The notes under the pieces were generated by a model. That model searched no databases. It was not told where the DNA came from and saw nothing but the letters and a program-made list of their open reading frames with translations. 64,000 nucleotides of DNA from Flavobacterium sp. J49 (GTDB lineage: Bacteria; Bacteroidota; Bacteroidia; Flavobacteriales; Flavobacteriaceae): assembly GCF_011742145.1 (NCBI RefSeq), contig NZ_JAAQQU010000104.1, positions 329,938 to 393,937 of the forward strand, written 5' to 3'. Below, piece after piece: positions 3,500 to 35,227 of this stretch; within the stretch, counting starts at the first letter, position 1; the number at the start of each line of letters is the position of its first letter. Position numbers and translations under genes: made by a program.

Positions 3500-3874
3500 A
3501 TGGATTTCTCGTATCCGAAAGCTGAAAAACTCAAAAGCAAAAACCTCATCGATTTGTTGTTCTCCGAGGGCAAATCTGTGAGCAAATACCCTTTGCGATT
3601 GGTTTATGTGCCTTGTGATTTTGAAGAAGATGTTCCTTTGAAAATGGGGGTTTCTGTTTCTAAAAAGCATTTTAAAAAAGCCGTTGACCGCAATTATTTC
3701 AAACGGGTTTTGCGCGAATGTTATCGGTTAAACAAAGCCCAATTAATAGACACTTTGGACAAAAAATACTGCTTTATGTTCTTCTATCAAACCCAAGAAA
3801 AATTACCCTATTCCGAAATAGAACAAAAGACCAAACAGCTTTTCGAAAAGTTTGGAAAAACCATTCATGAATAA
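3500..3874 (+). CDS. rnpA: Ribonuclease P protein component
   Basis: 124 residues from the ATG at 3500; the longer frame adds a non-homologous leader that overlaps the gene before it. RnpA assists the catalytic RNase P RNA in trimming 5' leaders from pre-tRNAs. The family signature is present: GVSVSKKHFKKAVDRNYFKR, with the RNxxKR basic motif of the RNA-binding helix. Length is normal. In many bacteria rnpA sits between rpmH and yidC next to dnaA; here it is followed instead by an S41 peptidase gene. Its presence with mnmG in the same 16 kb is of interest for the origin question raised below. Confidence 0.95.
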   Translation: MDFSYPKAEKLKSKNLIDLLFSEGKSVSKYPLRLVYVPCDFEEDVPLKMGVSVSKKHFKKAVDRNYFKRVLRECYRLNKAQLIDTLDKKYCFMFFYQTQEKLPYSEIEQKTKQLFEKFGKTIHE

Positions 3875-17294: not shown

Positions 17295-17310
17295 AGTTTC
17301 ACGTGGAACG
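17295..17310. promoter_or_regulatory. Probable parS site (second copy)
   Basis: AGTTTCACGTGGAACG differs from the canonical 16-bp ParB-binding palindrome only in its two outermost bases. It lies in the short gap between mnmG and the methyltransferase gene, 1.9 kb from the perfect copy at 19221-19236. ParB spreads from such sites to organise the origin region. Confidence 0.75.
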
Positions 17311-17340: not shown

Positions 17341-19212
17341 TTATCTTCCCATATAAATTAATAAAACCGAAATGTCGGCCGGTGAAACGCCACTGATTCT
17401 GGAAGCTTGAGAAATAGTTACCGGACGAATGTTACTCAGTTTTTGTTTGGCTTCAATTGACATTGATTTGATTTTGTGATAATCGAAATTCTCGGGGATT
17501 TTAATGTCTTCTAATCGAATTAATTTTTCGGCATTATTTCTTTCTTTTTCAATATATCCCGAATACTTAACATGAATTTCAGCTTGCTCAATTATTTCTT
17601 TGTCCAAATCATTTTCTTGAATGTACTTTTGAACTTTGTCAAATTTCAAAATGTCATCCAATTCAATTTGCGGACGAGAAAACACTTTAAACATTTTATC
17701 AGATTGATTCATCGGTGCACTTTCCTTTTCTATTAAAATAGGATTCGCTTCTTCTTGGGTAACACTTGTTTCCTTAAAGAAAGTCACCATTTTTTCACTT
17801 TCATTGAATTTATGCTCCATTCTTCTCATCCTTTTTTCAGAAGCCAAGCCTATTTCGAAAGACTTTGGTGTTAATCTGAAATCCGCGTTGTCCTGACGCA
17901 ATAGTGTTCTGTATTCAGCTCGAGAAGTAAACATGCGATAAGGCTCTTCTGTTCCTTTAGTGATTAAATCGTCGATTAAAACGCCAATATAGGCTTCATC
18001 ACGACGTAGAATCATCGGCGCCATATCTTTTACTTTCAAAGCCGCGTTGATTCCGGCCATCATACCTTGGGAAGCCGCTTCTTCGTAACCGGTCGTTCCG
18101 TTAATCTGACCTGCAAAATACAATCCTTCCACCAGCTTTGTTTCTAAGGTGTGCTTCAATTGTGTTGGCGGAAAATAATCGTATTCAATAGCATAACCAG
18201 GACGGAAAAACTTAACTTTTTCAAAACCTTCTACAGATCGTAAAGCTTTAAACTGAATGTCTTCAGGTAAGGAAGTGGAAAATCCATTAACATAAACTTC
18301 GACTGTATTCCATCCTTCGGGTTCCACAAAAAGTTGGTGTCGCTCTTTATCCGCAAACCGGTTAATTTTATCTTCAATAGATGGGCAATATCTTGGACCT
18401 ATACTTTTAATTCTTCCATTAAACATTGGTGAACGATCAAATCCTTCACGTAAAATATTGTGCACCTCGTTAGAAGTATAAGTCATATGACACAACATTT
18501 GATGCGACAAAGGTTTGGTTTCATCAGAATAAGAAAACTTATCCGGAATCAAATCTCCGGGTTCTTCACGCATTTTAGAATAATCCAAAGAGCGACCGTC
18601 AACTCGTGGCGGTGTTCCGGTTTTCATTCTTCCTGATTCGAAACCAACTTTAATTAAATCTTCCGTTATTCCATAGGCTGCACTTTCACCCGCTCTACCT
18701 CCGCCAAATTGTTTGTCTCCAATATGAATCAACCCGTTGAGAAAAGTACCGTTGGTTAGAACAACCGTTTTAGCCTTTATTTCAATTCCGAGAGAGGTTA
18801 CAATCCCTTCAATTTTATTGTTCTTGATCAAAAGTCCTTTGACCATTTCCTGATAGAAATCGAGATTCTCTGTTCGCTCTAACATCAATCGCCACTCTTC
18901 TGCGAAACGCATTCTGTCGCTTTGAACTCTCGGCGACCACATAGCCGGTCCTTTTGATTTATTAAGCATTTTAAACTGCACTGCGGTTTTATCCGAAACA
19001 ATTCCCGAATAACCTCCAAGCGCATCAATCTCTCGGACAATTTGCCCTTTGGCAATGCCTCCCATCGCCGGGTTACATGACATCTGTGCGATGTTCTGCA
19101 AACTCATCGTGACCAATAAGGTTTTGCAACCTAAATTGGCCGAGGCCGCTGCCGCTTCACAACCCGCATGTCCTGCGCCAACTACTATAGTATCGTACTT
19201 TTCTAAAAACAT
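17341..19212 (-). CDS. mnmG: tRNA uridine-5-carboxymethylaminomethyl modification enzyme MnmG (GidA)
   Basis: 623 residues, full length. With MnmE it installs the cmnm5 group on U34 of several tRNAs, using FAD, NADH and methylene-tetrahydrofolate. FAD-binding GAGHAGCEAA (about 12-21) opens the protein; the family blocks CNPAMGGIAKG, GRAGESAAYG, RMKTGTPPR, GPRYCPSIEDK and GQINGTTGYEEAASQG are all present, as is the C-terminal helical domain for MnmE binding. In many bacteria mnmG lies close to oriC. Here it is bracketed by two parS sites. ybeY ends 1 bp before its start, so the two are likely co-transcribed. Confidence 0.98.
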   Translation of the reverse strand: MFLEKYDTIVVGAGHAGCEAAAASANLGCKTLLVTMSLQNIAQMSCNPAMGGIAKGQIVREIDALGGYSGIVSDKTAVQFKMLNKSKGPAMWSPRVQSDRMRFAEEWRLMLERTENLDFYQEMVKGLLIKNNKIEGIVTSLGIEIKAKTVVLTNGTFLNGLIHIGDKQFGGGRAGESAAYGITEDLIKVGFESGRMKTGTPPRVDGRSLDYSKMREEPGDLIPDKFSYSDETKPLSHQMLCHMTYTSNEVHNILREGFDRSPMFNGRIKSIGPRYCPSIEDKINRFADKERHQLFVEPEGWNTVEVYVNGFSTSLPEDIQFKALRSVEGFEKVKFFRPGYAIEYDYFPPTQLKHTLETKLVEGLYFAGQINGTTGYEEAASQGMMAGINAALKVKDMAPMILRRDEAYIGVLIDDLITKGTEEPYRMFTSRAEYRTLLRQDNADFRLTPKSFEIGLASEKRMRRMEHKFNESEKMVTFFKETSVTQEEANPILIEKESAPMNQSDKMFKVFSRPQIELDDILKFDKVQKYIQENDLDKEIIEQAEIHVKYSGYIEKERNNAEKLIRLEDIKIPENFDYHKIKSMSIEAKQKLSNIRPVTISQASRISGVSPADISVLLIYMGR

Positions 19213-19213
19213 T

Positions 19214-19636
19214 TTAATTTTGTTTCACGTGGAACATCTTCATTTTCTCTTCTTCCTTTTCGCGCATTAATTGTTCGTCTTGTTCGGACTTGTCCTTGTA
19301 ACCACAATAATGTAAAACACCATGCACCATCACTCGTCTTAATTCATCTTCAAAAGAAACATTAAAATCAGCAGCGTTCTCTTGAACTCTTTCTATGGAA
19401 ATGAAAATATCTCCATGTAGCTCATTTCCTATAGAATAATCAAAACTGATGATGTCTGTAAGCGTGTCATGATGGAGGTATTGTTGGTTTATTTCCAACA
19501 AATAATCATCATCGCAGAAGATGTAGTTGATTTCGCCTTCGTTCTTTATTTCGGAGCTAATGACTTTGGAAAGCCAATCAGCATAAACCGTTTCATTGTC
19601 TAAATTGAAATCTGACTCGTAATTGAAACTAATCAT
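19214..19636 (-). CDS. ybeY: Endoribonuclease YbeY (rRNA maturation factor)
   Basis: 140 residues. A zinc-dependent RNase for 16S rRNA 3'-end processing and ribosome quality control. The metal motif reads H105-GVL-H109-YCGYK-D115; most bacteria have a third His at the last position, so the third ligand here would be Asp. DTLTDIISFDY and LHGDIFISIERV are the family's conserved strands. The C-terminus ends MFHVKQN because the gene's last codons contain a complete parS site. The gene overlaps the DUF4175 gene upstream by 8 bp and is followed by mnmG after 1 bp, making a DUF4175-ybeY-mnmG operon. Confidence 0.95.
   Translation of the reverse strand: MISFNYESDFNLDNETVYADWLSKVISSEIKNEGEINYIFCDDDYLLEINQQYLHHDTLTDIISFDYSIGNELHGDIFISIERVQENAADFNVSFEDELRRVMVHGVLHYCGYKDKSEQDEQLMREKEEEKMKMFHVKQN
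19221..19236. promoter_or_regulatory. parS site (perfect match), inside the ybeY 3' end
   Basis: TGTTTCACGTGGAACA is the reverse complement of TGTTCCACGTGAAACA, the classic bacterial parS sequence bound by ParB/Spo0J. It is embedded in the last codons of ybeY, where it encodes FHVK. Origin-proximal parS sites load ParB and condensin for chromosome segregation. No parA or parB gene is in the window. Confidence 0.88.
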
Positions 19637-29925: not shown

Positions 29926-29996
29926 GGCATCGTGGCCGAGCGGCTAGGCACCGGTCTGCAAAACCGTATACTCCGGTTCGAATCCGGACGATGCCT
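29926..29996 (+). tRNA. tRNA-Cys (GCA)
   Basis: 71 nt cloverleaf: acceptor stem GGCATCG pairs with CGATGCC (29989-29995), discriminator T at 29996, no encoded CCA. Anticodon GCA at 29958-29960 in loop CTGCAAA. T arm CCGGTTCGAATCCGG is canonical. Its T-arm and 3' end are duplicated downstream. Confidence 0.95.
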
Positions 29997-31633: not shown

Positions 31634-33814
31634 CTATTCATTTCTTCTGATAAAATGGAAATCCAATTGTTTTTTTACCAAATCGGCATTTTTTACTTTG
31701 ACATAAACTTCATCACCTAGCTGTAATAATCCTTTGGAAACCTGACCAACCAACGCATACTGTTTCTCATCAAAAACATAATAATCTTCTTTGATTTCTC
31801 TGATTCTGACCATGCCTTCGCATTTATTTTCGATGATTTCCACATAAATTCCCCATTCGGTTACGCCTGAAATTACCCCTAGAAACTCTTGGTCTTTGTG
31901 GTCTTGCATGTATTTCACCTGCATGTATTTGACCGAATCTCTTTCGGCTTGTGCAGCCAAACCTTCCATATCACTGGAATGCGCACATTTCTCTTCGTAT
32001 TCTTCTTGGCTCACACTTTTACCTCCGTCAAGATAATACTGCAACAATCGGTGTGCCATCACATCAGGATAACGTCGAATAGGTGAAGTAAAATGACTGT
32101 AGAAATCAAAAGCTAAACCATAATGGCCAATATTTTCAGTTGAATATTTGGCTTTGCTCATGCTTCGAATCGTCAACGTATCAACCAAATTTTGTTCCTT
32201 TTTACCATTGACTTCATTCAATAAATTATTCAACGATTTAGAAATATCTTGTTTGGATTTCATATTGATAGAATAGCCAAATTTAGAAATCACGGTTTGT
32301 AGGTTAATCAACTTGTCTTCGTTAGGTTCGTCGTGAATACGATAGACAAAAGTTTTCTTTTGCTTGCCTATAAATTCAGCTACTTTTCGGTTGGCCAACA
32401 ACATAAATTCTTCTATCAAATGATTGGCATCTTTAGAGATTTTAAAGAACACACCAACCGGTTCGGCTGCTTCATTTAAATTGAATTTTACTTCTACTTT
32501 ATCAAATGAAATCGCTCCGGCTGCCATTCTTTTTCTGCGAAGAATTTTAGCCAAATCATCCATTTTTAAAGTGGCTTCCACAATTTCCTTTGGTGCTTTA
32601 TATGCTGCACCGGTAAGTGAAATTTCTGCCGGAATCACATCTGATTTGGTTTCAATAATTTGTTGCGCTTCTTCATAAGCAAAACGCTGGTCGGAATAAA
32701 TGACGGTTCGCCCAAACCATTGGTTAACCACTTCTGCTTTGGGTGTTAATTCAAACACAGCAGAAAAAGTGTATTTTTCTTCATGCGGTCTGAGTGAACA
32801 AGCAAAATTAGATAATACTTCGGGTAACATTGGCACCACTCTGTCAACCAAATAAACTGAAGTAGCTCTTCGGTAAGCTTCATCATCGAGTATGGTTCCT
32901 TCTTTTAAATAATGGGAAACATCGGCAATATGAACGCCTATTTCAAAGTTTCCATTCTCTAAAACTTGGAAAGATAAAGCATCATCAAAATCTTTGGCAT
33001 CTTTCGGGTCAATGGTGAAGGTTAAAACCTTTCGCATGTCGCGACGTTTGGCAATTTCTTCCTGAGTGATTGACGTATCTAATTTGTTGGCGTAAGCATC
33101 AACTTCTATCGGGAAATCATACGGTAAACCATATTCGGCTAAAATGGCATGAATTTCAGTATTGTGTTCTCCCGGTTTTCCTAAAACTTTAATCACGGAA
33201 CCAAAAGGAGAATCCGCTTTCGCTGGCCAATCTTCTAGTTTCACTAAAACTACATCTCCGTGTTCGGCCTCGCCTAGTTTATTTTTTGGGATAAAAATAT
33301 CAGTGTACATTTTGGCATTTGCCGTAGTGACAAAACCAAAGTTCTTTTGAATATCAACTACTCCAACGAATTCCTCTTTATGTCTTTCTAAAATTTCTAA
33401 GACTTCCGCTTCGGGTTTTCTGGAACTTCTTCGGTCATACACATAGGCTTTTACCGTATCACCGTCTAAAGCGTGATTCAAATTCACAAACGGAACAAAA
33501 ACATCGTGCTCTAATTCGTCACAAACAAAATAAGCCGTTTTTCGCGAAGTCATATCAATGGTTCCTTCATAGTATTTTTGGCTGCTGGCTTTGACTAAAT
33601 ACTTTCCTGGTTCGGATTCTATAATTAGTTTTTGGGCAGCTAATATCTTTAAATCTTTGATAATTTCGTTTCTGCTTTTGGTATCATCCAGTTCCAGGAT
33701 TGCAGCTATTTGTTTGTAGTTGAATGGTTTATTGGCATTCTTGGATAATATTTTAAAAATCTTTTCGGAAAATGTTTTAGTATTCTTTCCGAACTTTTTG
33801 GGTTTCTTACTCAT
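31634..33814 (-). CDS. rnr: Ribonuclease R
   Basis: 726 residues. 3'-to-5' exoribonuclease of the RNB/RNase II family that degrades structured RNA. Domain order: N-terminal helix-turn-helix (about 15-70), two cold-shock domains (about 75-220), the catalytic RNB domain with the DPKDAKDFDDAL motif whose Asp residues bind Mg, and a C-terminal S1 domain (about 640-715, GVISGVTEWGIYVEIIENKCEGMVRI). The C-terminal Lys-rich tail seen in E. coli is absent. It reads leftward from the start of the gene-free region at 34.2 kb, with the small DUF2007 gene divergent. Confidence 0.97.
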   Translation of the reverse strand: MSKKPKKFGKNTKTFSEKIFKILSKNANKPFNYKQIAAILELDDTKSRNEIIKDLKILAAQKLIIESEPGKYLVKASSQKYYEGTIDMTSRKTAYFVCDELEHDVFVPFVNLNHALDGDTVKAYVYDRRSSRKPEAEVLEILERHKEEFVGVVDIQKNFGFVTTANAKMYTDIFIPKNKLGEAEHGDVVLVKLEDWPAKADSPFGSVIKVLGKPGEHNTEIHAILAEYGLPYDFPIEVDAYANKLDTSITQEEIAKRRDMRKVLTFTIDPKDAKDFDDALSFQVLENGNFEIGVHIADVSHYLKEGTILDDEAYRRATSVYLVDRVVPMLPEVLSNFACSLRPHEEKYTFSAVFELTPKAEVVNQWFGRTVIYSDQRFAYEEAQQIIETKSDVIPAEISLTGAAYKAPKEIVEATLKMDDLAKILRRKRMAAGAISFDKVEVKFNLNEAAEPVGVFFKISKDANHLIEEFMLLANRKVAEFIGKQKKTFVYRIHDEPNEDKLINLQTVISKFGYSINMKSKQDISKSLNNLLNEVNGKKEQNLVDTLTIRSMSKAKYSTENIGHYGLAFDFYSHFTSPIRRYPDVMAHRLLQYYLDGGKSVSQEEYEEKCAHSSDMEGLAAQAERDSVKYMQVKYMQDHKDQEFLGVISGVTEWGIYVEIIENKCEGMVRIREIKEDYYVFDEKQYALVGQVSKGLLQLGDEVYVKVKNADLVKKQLDFHFIRRNE

Positions 33815-33926: not shown

Positions 33927-34160
33927 ATGACCGAATTTGTAACCATTGCCACTTTTAATTTTGTTCACGAAATCTCGGTTTTAAAAAGCATTTTAGACCG
34001 AGAAAATATTCCGTATTTATTCCAAAATGAAAACCTGGTTTCTATAGATCCTATGGCCAGTTTGGCATATGGCGGCATCCAATTAAAAATTCATCCCAAC
34101 GATATTCTGGCTGTTCAAACTATTTTAGACGACCTAAATAATAATTTAAAAATCGTTTAA
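33927..34160 (+). CDS. DUF2007 putative signal-transducing protein
   Basis: 77 residues, one compact ferredoxin-like domain: TIATFNFVHEISVLKSILDRENIPYLFQNENLVSIDP, then YGGIQLKIHPNDILAVQTILDDL. This matches DUF2007, whose members bind a partner or ligand of unknown nature. The gene is divergent from rnr (112 bp between starts) and lies immediately left of the gene-free region 34161-34795. Confidence 0.88.
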   Translation: MTEFVTIATFNFVHEISVLKSILDRENIPYLFQNENLVSIDPMASLAYGGIQLKIHPNDILAVQTILDDLNNNLKIV

Positions 34161-34763
34161 AATTTCAAAGTTGTCAACATATATTAAAAACAACAAAAAA
34201 GAATTTTAAAAAATTTAAATTTTATAATGGTTATTATAGGGTGTTAATAGCTGTAATAACTTTTTTCTTAAGGATGAGTTTTAAAAGTTATCTAAACTTA
34301 TACAGAGAAATTAACAATAGTATGAAAAGTCAAAAGGCTTAAAATGAGTAAATTTTTAGGAGTTGTCAACAGTTGTTAACATGTAAAAAATCAGTCAAAT
34401 TTTTAATAAGTTTACTTGTTGATTTGTGTTGAAAACCTGTTTTTTTATGCTGATAAGTATTCCAAAAAAAGAGCAAACTAAATTTGATTTTCTCGTTTCA
34501 ATTTTTGATTAGAAAAAATTCTGTTACAACCTCAAAAAACTTCTGATTTTCTATCCAAAGTTGTTAACAATTCATGTTAATTTAAAGTTAACTGATTATC
34601 AACGATTTGCAAAACACTATCAACATTGTATAATTTTAACATTTGAAATGAAATTTATGCAATGATTTTCAAATAGTTATAGAAAGTTCTCAGTTGGCAA
34701 ATAATCTTAGATTTTAAAAATCAAGTAGTTACAATAAAGTAAAAATCCAACCGATAGTTTCCT
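34161..34763. other. Gene-free AT-rich region with DnaA-box-like cluster; candidate oriC
   Basis: No open frame of useful length on either strand. It contains many 9-mers close to the DnaA box TTATCCACA but with A at position 6: TTGTCAACA at 34171 and 34363, TTGTTAACA at 34373 and 34561, TTATCAACG at 34596, CTATCAACA at 34617, and on the minus strand TTTTCAACA at 34427-34435 and TTATCAGCA at 34448-34456. A very AT-rich stretch at 34187-34245 could be the unwinding element. It is the longest non-coding interval in the window. Calling it the origin is inference. Confidence 0.55.
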
Positions 34764-34771
34764 TAAATTTG
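34764..34771 (+). promoter_or_regulatory. Promoter -7 box for rpiB
   Basis: TAAATTTG, an exact TAnnTTTG match, 24 bp before the rpiB ATG with an A-rich leader (ACACAAAAAAATCAAC) and no Shine-Dalgarno. Confidence 0.6.
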
Positions 34772-34795
34772 TAGTCACAACACAAAAAAATCAAC

Positions 34796-35227
34796 ATGAA
34801 AATTTCTATCGGAAACGATCACGCCGGACCGGATTACAAAAAAGCCATTGTCGCATTTTTAGAACAAAAAGGATATCAAATTTTTAACCATGGAACCGAC
34901 ACTTTTGACAGTGTAGATTATCCTGATTTTGGTCATCCTGTTGCTGTAGACGTCGAAACTAAAAGAGCCAATTTTGGCATAGTGATTTGCGGTTCCGGAA
35001 ACGGAATAGCCATGTCGGCCAATAAACACCAAGGCATCCGCGCTGCACTTTGTTGGACCAAAGAAATTTCCGCTCTGGCACGCCAACACAACGATGCCAA
35101 TGTTATTAGTATTCCGGCACGATACACTTCTATTCAACAAGCTGTGGAAATGGTAGATACTTTTTTAAATACCGCTTTCGAAGGCGGAAGACATGCCACC
35201 AGAGTGAATAAAATAAGCTGTCTTTAA
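34796..35227 (+). CDS. rpiB: Ribose 5-phosphate isomerase B
   Basis: 143 residues. Interconverts ribose 5-phosphate and ribulose 5-phosphate in the pentose phosphate pathway. The family pattern is complete: GNDHAGPDYKK at the start, catalytic Cys65 in ICGSGNGIAM, His98 in LARQHNDANV and the phosphate-binding CWTKEISAL/PARYTS block. First gene after the gene-free region and first of a plus-strand series; the next gene starts 5 bp later. Confidence 0.95.
   Translation: MKISIGNDHAGPDYKKAIVAFLEQKGYQIFNHGTDTFDSVDYPDFGHPVAVDVETKRANFGIVICGSGNGIAMSANKHQGIRAALCWTKEISALARQHNDANVISIPARYTSIQQAVEMVDTFLNTAFEGGRHATRVNKISCL

Follow-up and report, generated by a model that had tools for sequence, protein, structure and literature searches.

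A probable DnaA-type replication origin between orf77 and rpiB, far from dnaA, in Flavobacterium sp. J49

The oriC of Escherichia coli combines a cluster of DnaA boxes with an AT-rich unwinding element and does not lie beside dnaA. In Elizabethkingia meningoseptica, the passages available describe a predicted oriC of 649 bp at positions 740,720 to 741,368, with dnaA at 2,613,273 (PMC8994065). Those on Flavobacterium enshiense R6S-5-6 describe a chromosome rotated to start at dnaA, with the origin placed by GC skew at 710,681 to 712,192, at gltX (PMC9867689). Two further predictions, both made with Ori-Finder, name mnmG. The Algorimicrobium origin is placed there in the portion of the paper available and said to agree with GC skew (PMC12843772). 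For Mariniflexile litorale, the corresponding text puts the origin at mnmG, expressly not at dnaA and in agreement with GC skew, and a figure legend in the same paper swaps oriC and ter (PMC11278836).

Genomes of this group are nevertheless frequently opened at dnaA, as though replication began there; the accessible parts of two reports indicate this (PMC9867689, PMC5219744), and the record starts at dnaA in 6 of 8 closed or nearly closed congeners of the strain studied here. A likely origin about 1 Mb from dnaA matters for read-depth estimates of growth rate and for gene-dosage studies, both of which need the right place. The window analyzed here is a 64-kb stretch of Flavobacterium sp. J49, positions 329938 to 393937 of a 930,373-base contig (C95) in a genome of 105 contigs. 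A gene-free gap in this window is very probably the chromosomal replication origin, of the DnaA type and far from dnaA.

Architecture of the gap between orf77 and rpiB

The oriC candidate occupies positions 34161 to 34795, between orf77 and rpiB and beyond rnr. Its G+C content is 23%, versus 36% for the 64-kb window. The initial annotation had described it as the only long gene-free gap; together with orf77, it is indeed the longest stretch of the window without a listed open reading frame of at least 90 amino acids. Rfam and tRNA scans of the window gave one match each, the tRNA being at 29926, and none in the gap. The features are as follows (window positions).

17295 to 17310: second parS-like site, 3 mismatches to TGTTCCACGTGGAACA
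19221 to 19236, plus strand: parS-like site about 15 kb from the gap, 1 mismatch to TGTTCCACGTGGAACA
31634 to 33814, minus strand: rnr (RNase R), left neighbor (Pfam RNB and other matches)
33927 to 34160, plus strand: orf77, 77-aa protein with no match in a Pfam search
34161 to 34795, no strand: predicted oriC, the gene-free gap between orf77 and rpiB
34171 to 34179, plus strand: DnaA box A, TTGTCAACA, offset 0; exact TTnTYAACA, box place kept in the family
34179 to 34238, no strand: predicted DNA unwinding element (nearest-neighbor stability)
34227 to 34249, plus strand: conserved 23-bp element ATGGTTATTATAGnnTGTTAATA, present in 43 of 120 family genera
34308 to 34316, plus strand: degenerate box AAATTAACA, offset +137; matching box-pair spacing in 10 of 21 genus loci
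34363 to 34371, plus strand: DnaA box TTGTCAACA, offset +192; exact TTnTYAACA, genus alignment
34373 to 34381, plus strand: DnaA box TTGTTAACA, offset +202; exact TTnTYAACA, genus alignment
34427 to 34435, minus strand: DnaA box D, TTTTCAACA, offset +256; 134 bases before box E in 16 of 21 genus loci
34561 to 34570, no strand: DnaA box E, palindromic TTGTTAACAA, offset +390; exact TTnTYAACA, genus alignment
34596 to 34604, plus strand: weaker box-like site TTATCAACG; close variant, genus alignment
34617 to 34625, plus strand: weaker box-like site CTATCAACA, aligned consensus CTATTAACA; close variant, genus alignment
34796 to 35227, plus strand: rpiB, right neighbor (Pfam LacAB_rpiB)

The gap contains six exact matches to TTnTYAACA at five places (34171+, 34363+, 34373+, 34427-, 34561+, and 34562-), the last two of which form one palindrome, TTGTTAACAA. 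Close variants are found at 34242- (CTATTAACA), 34374- (ATGTTAACA), 34308+ (AAATTAACA), 34596+ (TTATCAACG), and 34617+ (CTATCAACA). The earlier count of at least eight 9-mers therefore holds if the variants are included, but not for the exact matches. Such a cluster, as expected of a bacterial DnaA-dependent oriC, clearly exceeds chance: 0.55 matches are expected, and none of 5,000 shuffles of the gap that kept its dinucleotides reached six. The form TTGTYAACA is rarer in the 3.05-Mb genome than the reversed pattern (118 versus 164 occurrences), and five of the 118 are in the gap. No second group of three TTGTYAACA within 650 bases is found among the 100 genome places listed, and the top stretches listed include no other 600-bp stretch with three or more TTnTYAACA outside the gap. 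None of the 9-mers in the gap is within one mismatch of the DnaA box TTATCCACA; the nearest have two mismatches, which revises the initial estimate of one to three bases to two or more.

In the whole window, no 60-bp segment is predicted to be less stable than the one starting at 34179, beside box A, which corresponds to the AT-rich stretch singled out in the initial annotation. This adjacent, easily melted element is a prediction from nearest-neighbor stability. A run of DnaA-trios beside a box, as in the basal unwinding system of the Bacillus subtilis type, is a point of difference: for the motif YTW, no run of four or more is found in 34101 to 34795 on either strand. At its 3' end, the 23-bp element ATGGTTATTATAGnnTGTTAATA overlaps the minus-strand box-like site at 34242 to 34250. 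The element is the most conserved noncoding block, with a left part that reads GGTTATTATAG and a box-like end.

This arrangement suggests how the gap might work. DnaA, encoded about 1 Mb away, would bind the ordered 9-mers at offsets 0, +192, +202, +256 (reversed), and +390, as well as the weaker sites, and would assemble toward the AT-rich segment between box A and the conserved element (34179 to 34238). Once melted, this segment would allow the helicase to be loaded, and forks would leave in both directions.

Conservation of the boxes and of the 23-bp element

Within the genus, at least four boxes are found in the 1.1 kb upstream of rpiB in 21 of 30 loci, a sample in which locus L012 was unparsed and some loci are cut by contig ends. 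Among these 21 loci, 16 have the D-E spacing of 134 bases, and 10 have a box pair 137 bases apart. The usual offsets from box A in the genus are 0, +137, +192 or +202, +256 (reversed), and +390; the array in the window has every one of them except a good box at +137, where it reads AAATTAACA. A broader set of named loci, the best 80 of 581 relatives, possibly overlaps the genus genomes in species; in 62 of the 80, the 3.1 kb upstream of rpiB contain four or more boxes. An alignment of these 62 loci with the window displays conserved blocks outside the boxes too, and the genus boxes read TTnTYAACA; its 63 rows were chosen because they have clusters of four or more boxes, which biases the box columns.

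The element ATGGTTATTATAGnnTGTTAATA, at up to two mismatches, is found in 43 of 120 family genomes (one per genus), compared to 6 of 120 for a reversed-pattern control, and was not found in the other 77 genera. In an order-wide draw, it is present in all 11 genomes of the genus and in half (5 of 10) of those from elsewhere in the family, whereas it was found in none of the 127 genomes that represent the order's other families, 20 of them reduced (0.3 to 0.6 Mb) and some incomplete. Among the 30 family loci (own locus included) returned of 45 matches, a box lies 56 to 58 bases before the element in 24, 10 of which have a perfect TTATCCACA there, and 12 loci have a box at +332 to +335 relative to the element. 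The element is followed by rpiB in 29 of the 30 loci and preceded by rnr in 23. The array is thus conserved in relatives, and the 9-mers keep their places, as seen from the D-E spacing in the genus and the box before the element in the family. Element and array together provide a sequence tag for the origin in part of the family. Several genus loci, and 3 of 29 loci from other genera, have relatives of orf77 in the interval from rnr to the array or rpiB.

The A at position 6 of the boxes had been viewed as a possible lineage-specific trait. The genus boxes, reading TTnTYAACA, bear this out; the perfect TTATCCACA in 10 of 24 family loci speaks against it for the family. An altered DnaA helix was considered as the cause of this A and rejected: the DnaA recognition motif is DHA in 29 of 29 sequences, whether or not TTATCCACA is kept at the locus (30 genomes, with no DnaA in G126 and with weak second matches in G136 and G096 excluded). 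Because DHA is found in all 29 and TTATCCACA is still perfect in 10 loci, a changed DnaA is not needed, and the boxes appear to have drifted. The third recognition residue is threonine in most DnaA proteins studied, with serine or alanine also seen, according to the passages available of PMC5043019.

Position of dnaA and GC skew

The common layout, with dnaA within a few kilobases of oriC, is not found here: dnaA is on a different contig from the gap, and it lies 0.87 to 1.26 Mb from the array in all 8 closed or nearly closed congeners, in accordance with the proposal of an origin not marked by dnaA. In spaced 20-kb samples, GC skew on the 930-kb contig of the gap is negative in all 7 samples left of the gap and positive in all 8 right of it, whereas all 5 samples from the dnaA contig are positive, with no switch. 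With coding orientation in the fit, the effect of the side on skew is 0.071 (standard error, 0.013). In three closed congeners, the interpolated skew minimum and the array lie at 1.115 and 1.115 Mb, at 1.625 and 1.553 Mb, and at 0.95 and 0.999 Mb, respectively (20 samples each, for a resolution of about 100 kb), and dnaA is away from the sampled minimum in all three. On its own contig and in these sampled congeners, the array is thus at the GC-skew minimum, and the skew check suggested in the initial annotation comes out in favor of the gap and not of dnaA.

At short range, skew is not diagnostic of the origin here, because the divergent orientation of rnr and rpiB limits what it can tell. The minimum within the window is at 33568, and the best change point, with gene orientation left in, is at 33550; at third codon positions, the left-right difference in the window is only +0.018 for plus-strand genes and +0.083 for minus-strand genes. 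A local minimum lies within 0.3 kb of the array in all five closed or nearly closed congeners with an array at rpiB (G010, G036, G042, G045, and G057). Of 51 named loci with the array, 43 have their minimum no more than 2 kb from rpiB, but so do 8 of the 11 named loci without an array, and a local minimum at rpiB was therefore given little weight as origin evidence. Skew is higher on the right in 45 of 45 named loci (left side negative in 45, right side positive in 37), which is weak support given the same divergence of rnr and rpiB. Around the element in ten other genera, the right side exceeds the left in 8 of 10 loci, with skew passing from negative values on the left to positive ones on the right at only one of the ten, which is unconvincing.

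Relocated arrays, alternative readings, and known origins

Six congeners (G009, G011, G058, G018, G022, and G020) have the box array at gltX or ybeY-mnmG instead of at rpiB, with the relocation in G020 judged from coordinates. In G009, G011, and G058 (loci L107 to L112), the gene order mnmG, ybeY, gltX, glnS, folB, rnr, rpiB is as in the window, but the array sits some 15 kb away from rpiB, in the interval from gltX to the ybeY side; the BLAST ends of orf77 and rpiB are about 40 bases apart in G009 and G011. In G018 and G022 (L113 to L116), the array adjoins ybeY-mnmG. The arrays of G009 and G011 align with that of the window at 66 to 67% identity over 448 to 483 bases (E values of 3e-55 and 9e-49), like arrays at the rpiB site (65 to 68%). 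Those of G018, G058, and G022 are more weakly similar (59 to 60%; E values of 2e-17 to 2e-8); in the same comparison, the E value of an unrelated match in G036 is 5e-4. Judged by these alignments, the relocated arrays of five congeners are homologous to the array in the window.

By coordinates, 34 of the 58 congeners (a number that includes the own genome) have a D-E pair no more than 3 kb from rpiB, 4 (G009, G011, G020, and G058) have one no more than 3 kb from gltX, and none of the 58 has a pair near both. The box-pair pattern by itself is unspecific, a reversed control matching 5 of 16 and 17 of 42 genomes, and only nearness to rpiB or gltX was used for placement. The pair is elsewhere only in 8 of 58 genomes and nowhere in 12; these 20 include G018 and G022, with the array at ybeY-mnmG, and G010, G014, G026, and G051, with at least four boxes at rpiB, so that 14 of 58 stay unplaced. 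In a midpoint-rooted tree without support values, which kept 38 of 59 rows and lacks G058 and G020, the pairs G009-G011 and G018-G022 fall in two places. We lean toward the view that oriC is a portable cassette, in which a homologous array has moved by about 15 kb between an orf77-rpiB home and a gltX/ybeY-mnmG home, with the intervening gene order kept, apparently in at least two branches, and, by the box-pair pattern, never occupying both homes in the 58 genomes. Such relocations would offer a natural test of whether the position of an origin is important in an unchanged gene neighborhood.

The relocated array contains the local skew minimum in G058; the distance between the two is 2 kb in G018 and 8 to 17 kb in G009, G011, and G022. 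The idea that skew still points to the old home was rejected: only G011 has its minimum at rpiB, which gene orientation can explain, while the minimum is midway in G009 and not on the old-home side in G022.

Two other readings of the gap can be weighed against these data. The gap is the upstream region of rpiB, and TTGTTAACAA is palindromic, as are many repressor sites, so the 9-mers could be ordinary sites of a transcription regulator with no role in replication. A homologous array beside gltX, about 15 kb from rpiB, in G009 and G011 is hard to reconcile with such a regulator, as are the contig-scale skew switch at the gap and the perfect E. coli boxes at the place of box A in 10 of 24 family loci, and this reading is accordingly very improbable.

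The true origin might instead lie beside mnmG and parS, some 15 kb farther left, with the gap merely near it. Both mnmG (17341 to 19212) and rnpA (3515 to 3853) are in the window, as noted initially. The parS sites reported at about 15 kb were also recovered, as matches to the parS consensus TGTTCCACGTGGAACA with 1 mismatch at 19221 and 3 mismatches at 17295; two such matches occurred in 1 of 100 shuffles, and the two sites flank mnmG. An origin at mnmG would fit these sites, the array beside ybeY-mnmG in G018 and G022, and the published predictions as far as their available passages go (PMC12843772; PMC11278836, with a figure legend that contradicts the text), and short-range skew is unable to decide. 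However, a change point at 33550 is better than one at 17341 or 19221 by 15 to 18 log units (orientation left in), and the top stretches listed include no 600-bp stretch with three or more TTnTYAACA outside the gap, so there is very little chance that mnmG marks the origin. The gap itself is strongly preferred as the seat of oriC.

Compared to the oriC of E. coli, the gap has TTnTYAACA boxes, a different spacing, an extra conserved element, and other neighbors. The E. meningoseptica oriC, as described in the passages available, resembles it in being away from dnaA and in combining boxes (three) with AT-rich elements; its boxes are within one mismatch of TTATCCACA, whereas those of the gap have two or more, and a search of 127 genomes from the order's other families did not find the element of the window. 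F. enshiense R6S-5-6 belongs to the same genus, and its origin is likewise placed away from dnaA; the available passages give gltX and no boxes. In strain DK69 of that species, locus L203 has no four-box cluster and about 42 bases between orf77 and rpiB, which fits the relocated form, with gltX outside the locus. For the Algorimicrobium and Mariniflexile predictions, the portions available give no conserved array or element, unlike the gap. No origin between rnr and rpiB was found in the open literature, as far as the available parts of the papers go (including PMC2768785, PMC4759079, PMC10225481, PMC5043019, and PMC5219744); DoriC may contain such predictions. Origins away from dnaA have thus already been described, in the passages available, for the family (placed at gltX or mnmG) and for Elizabethkingia; what is added here is the exact seat of the predicted origin, its anatomy, and six congeners with relocated arrays.
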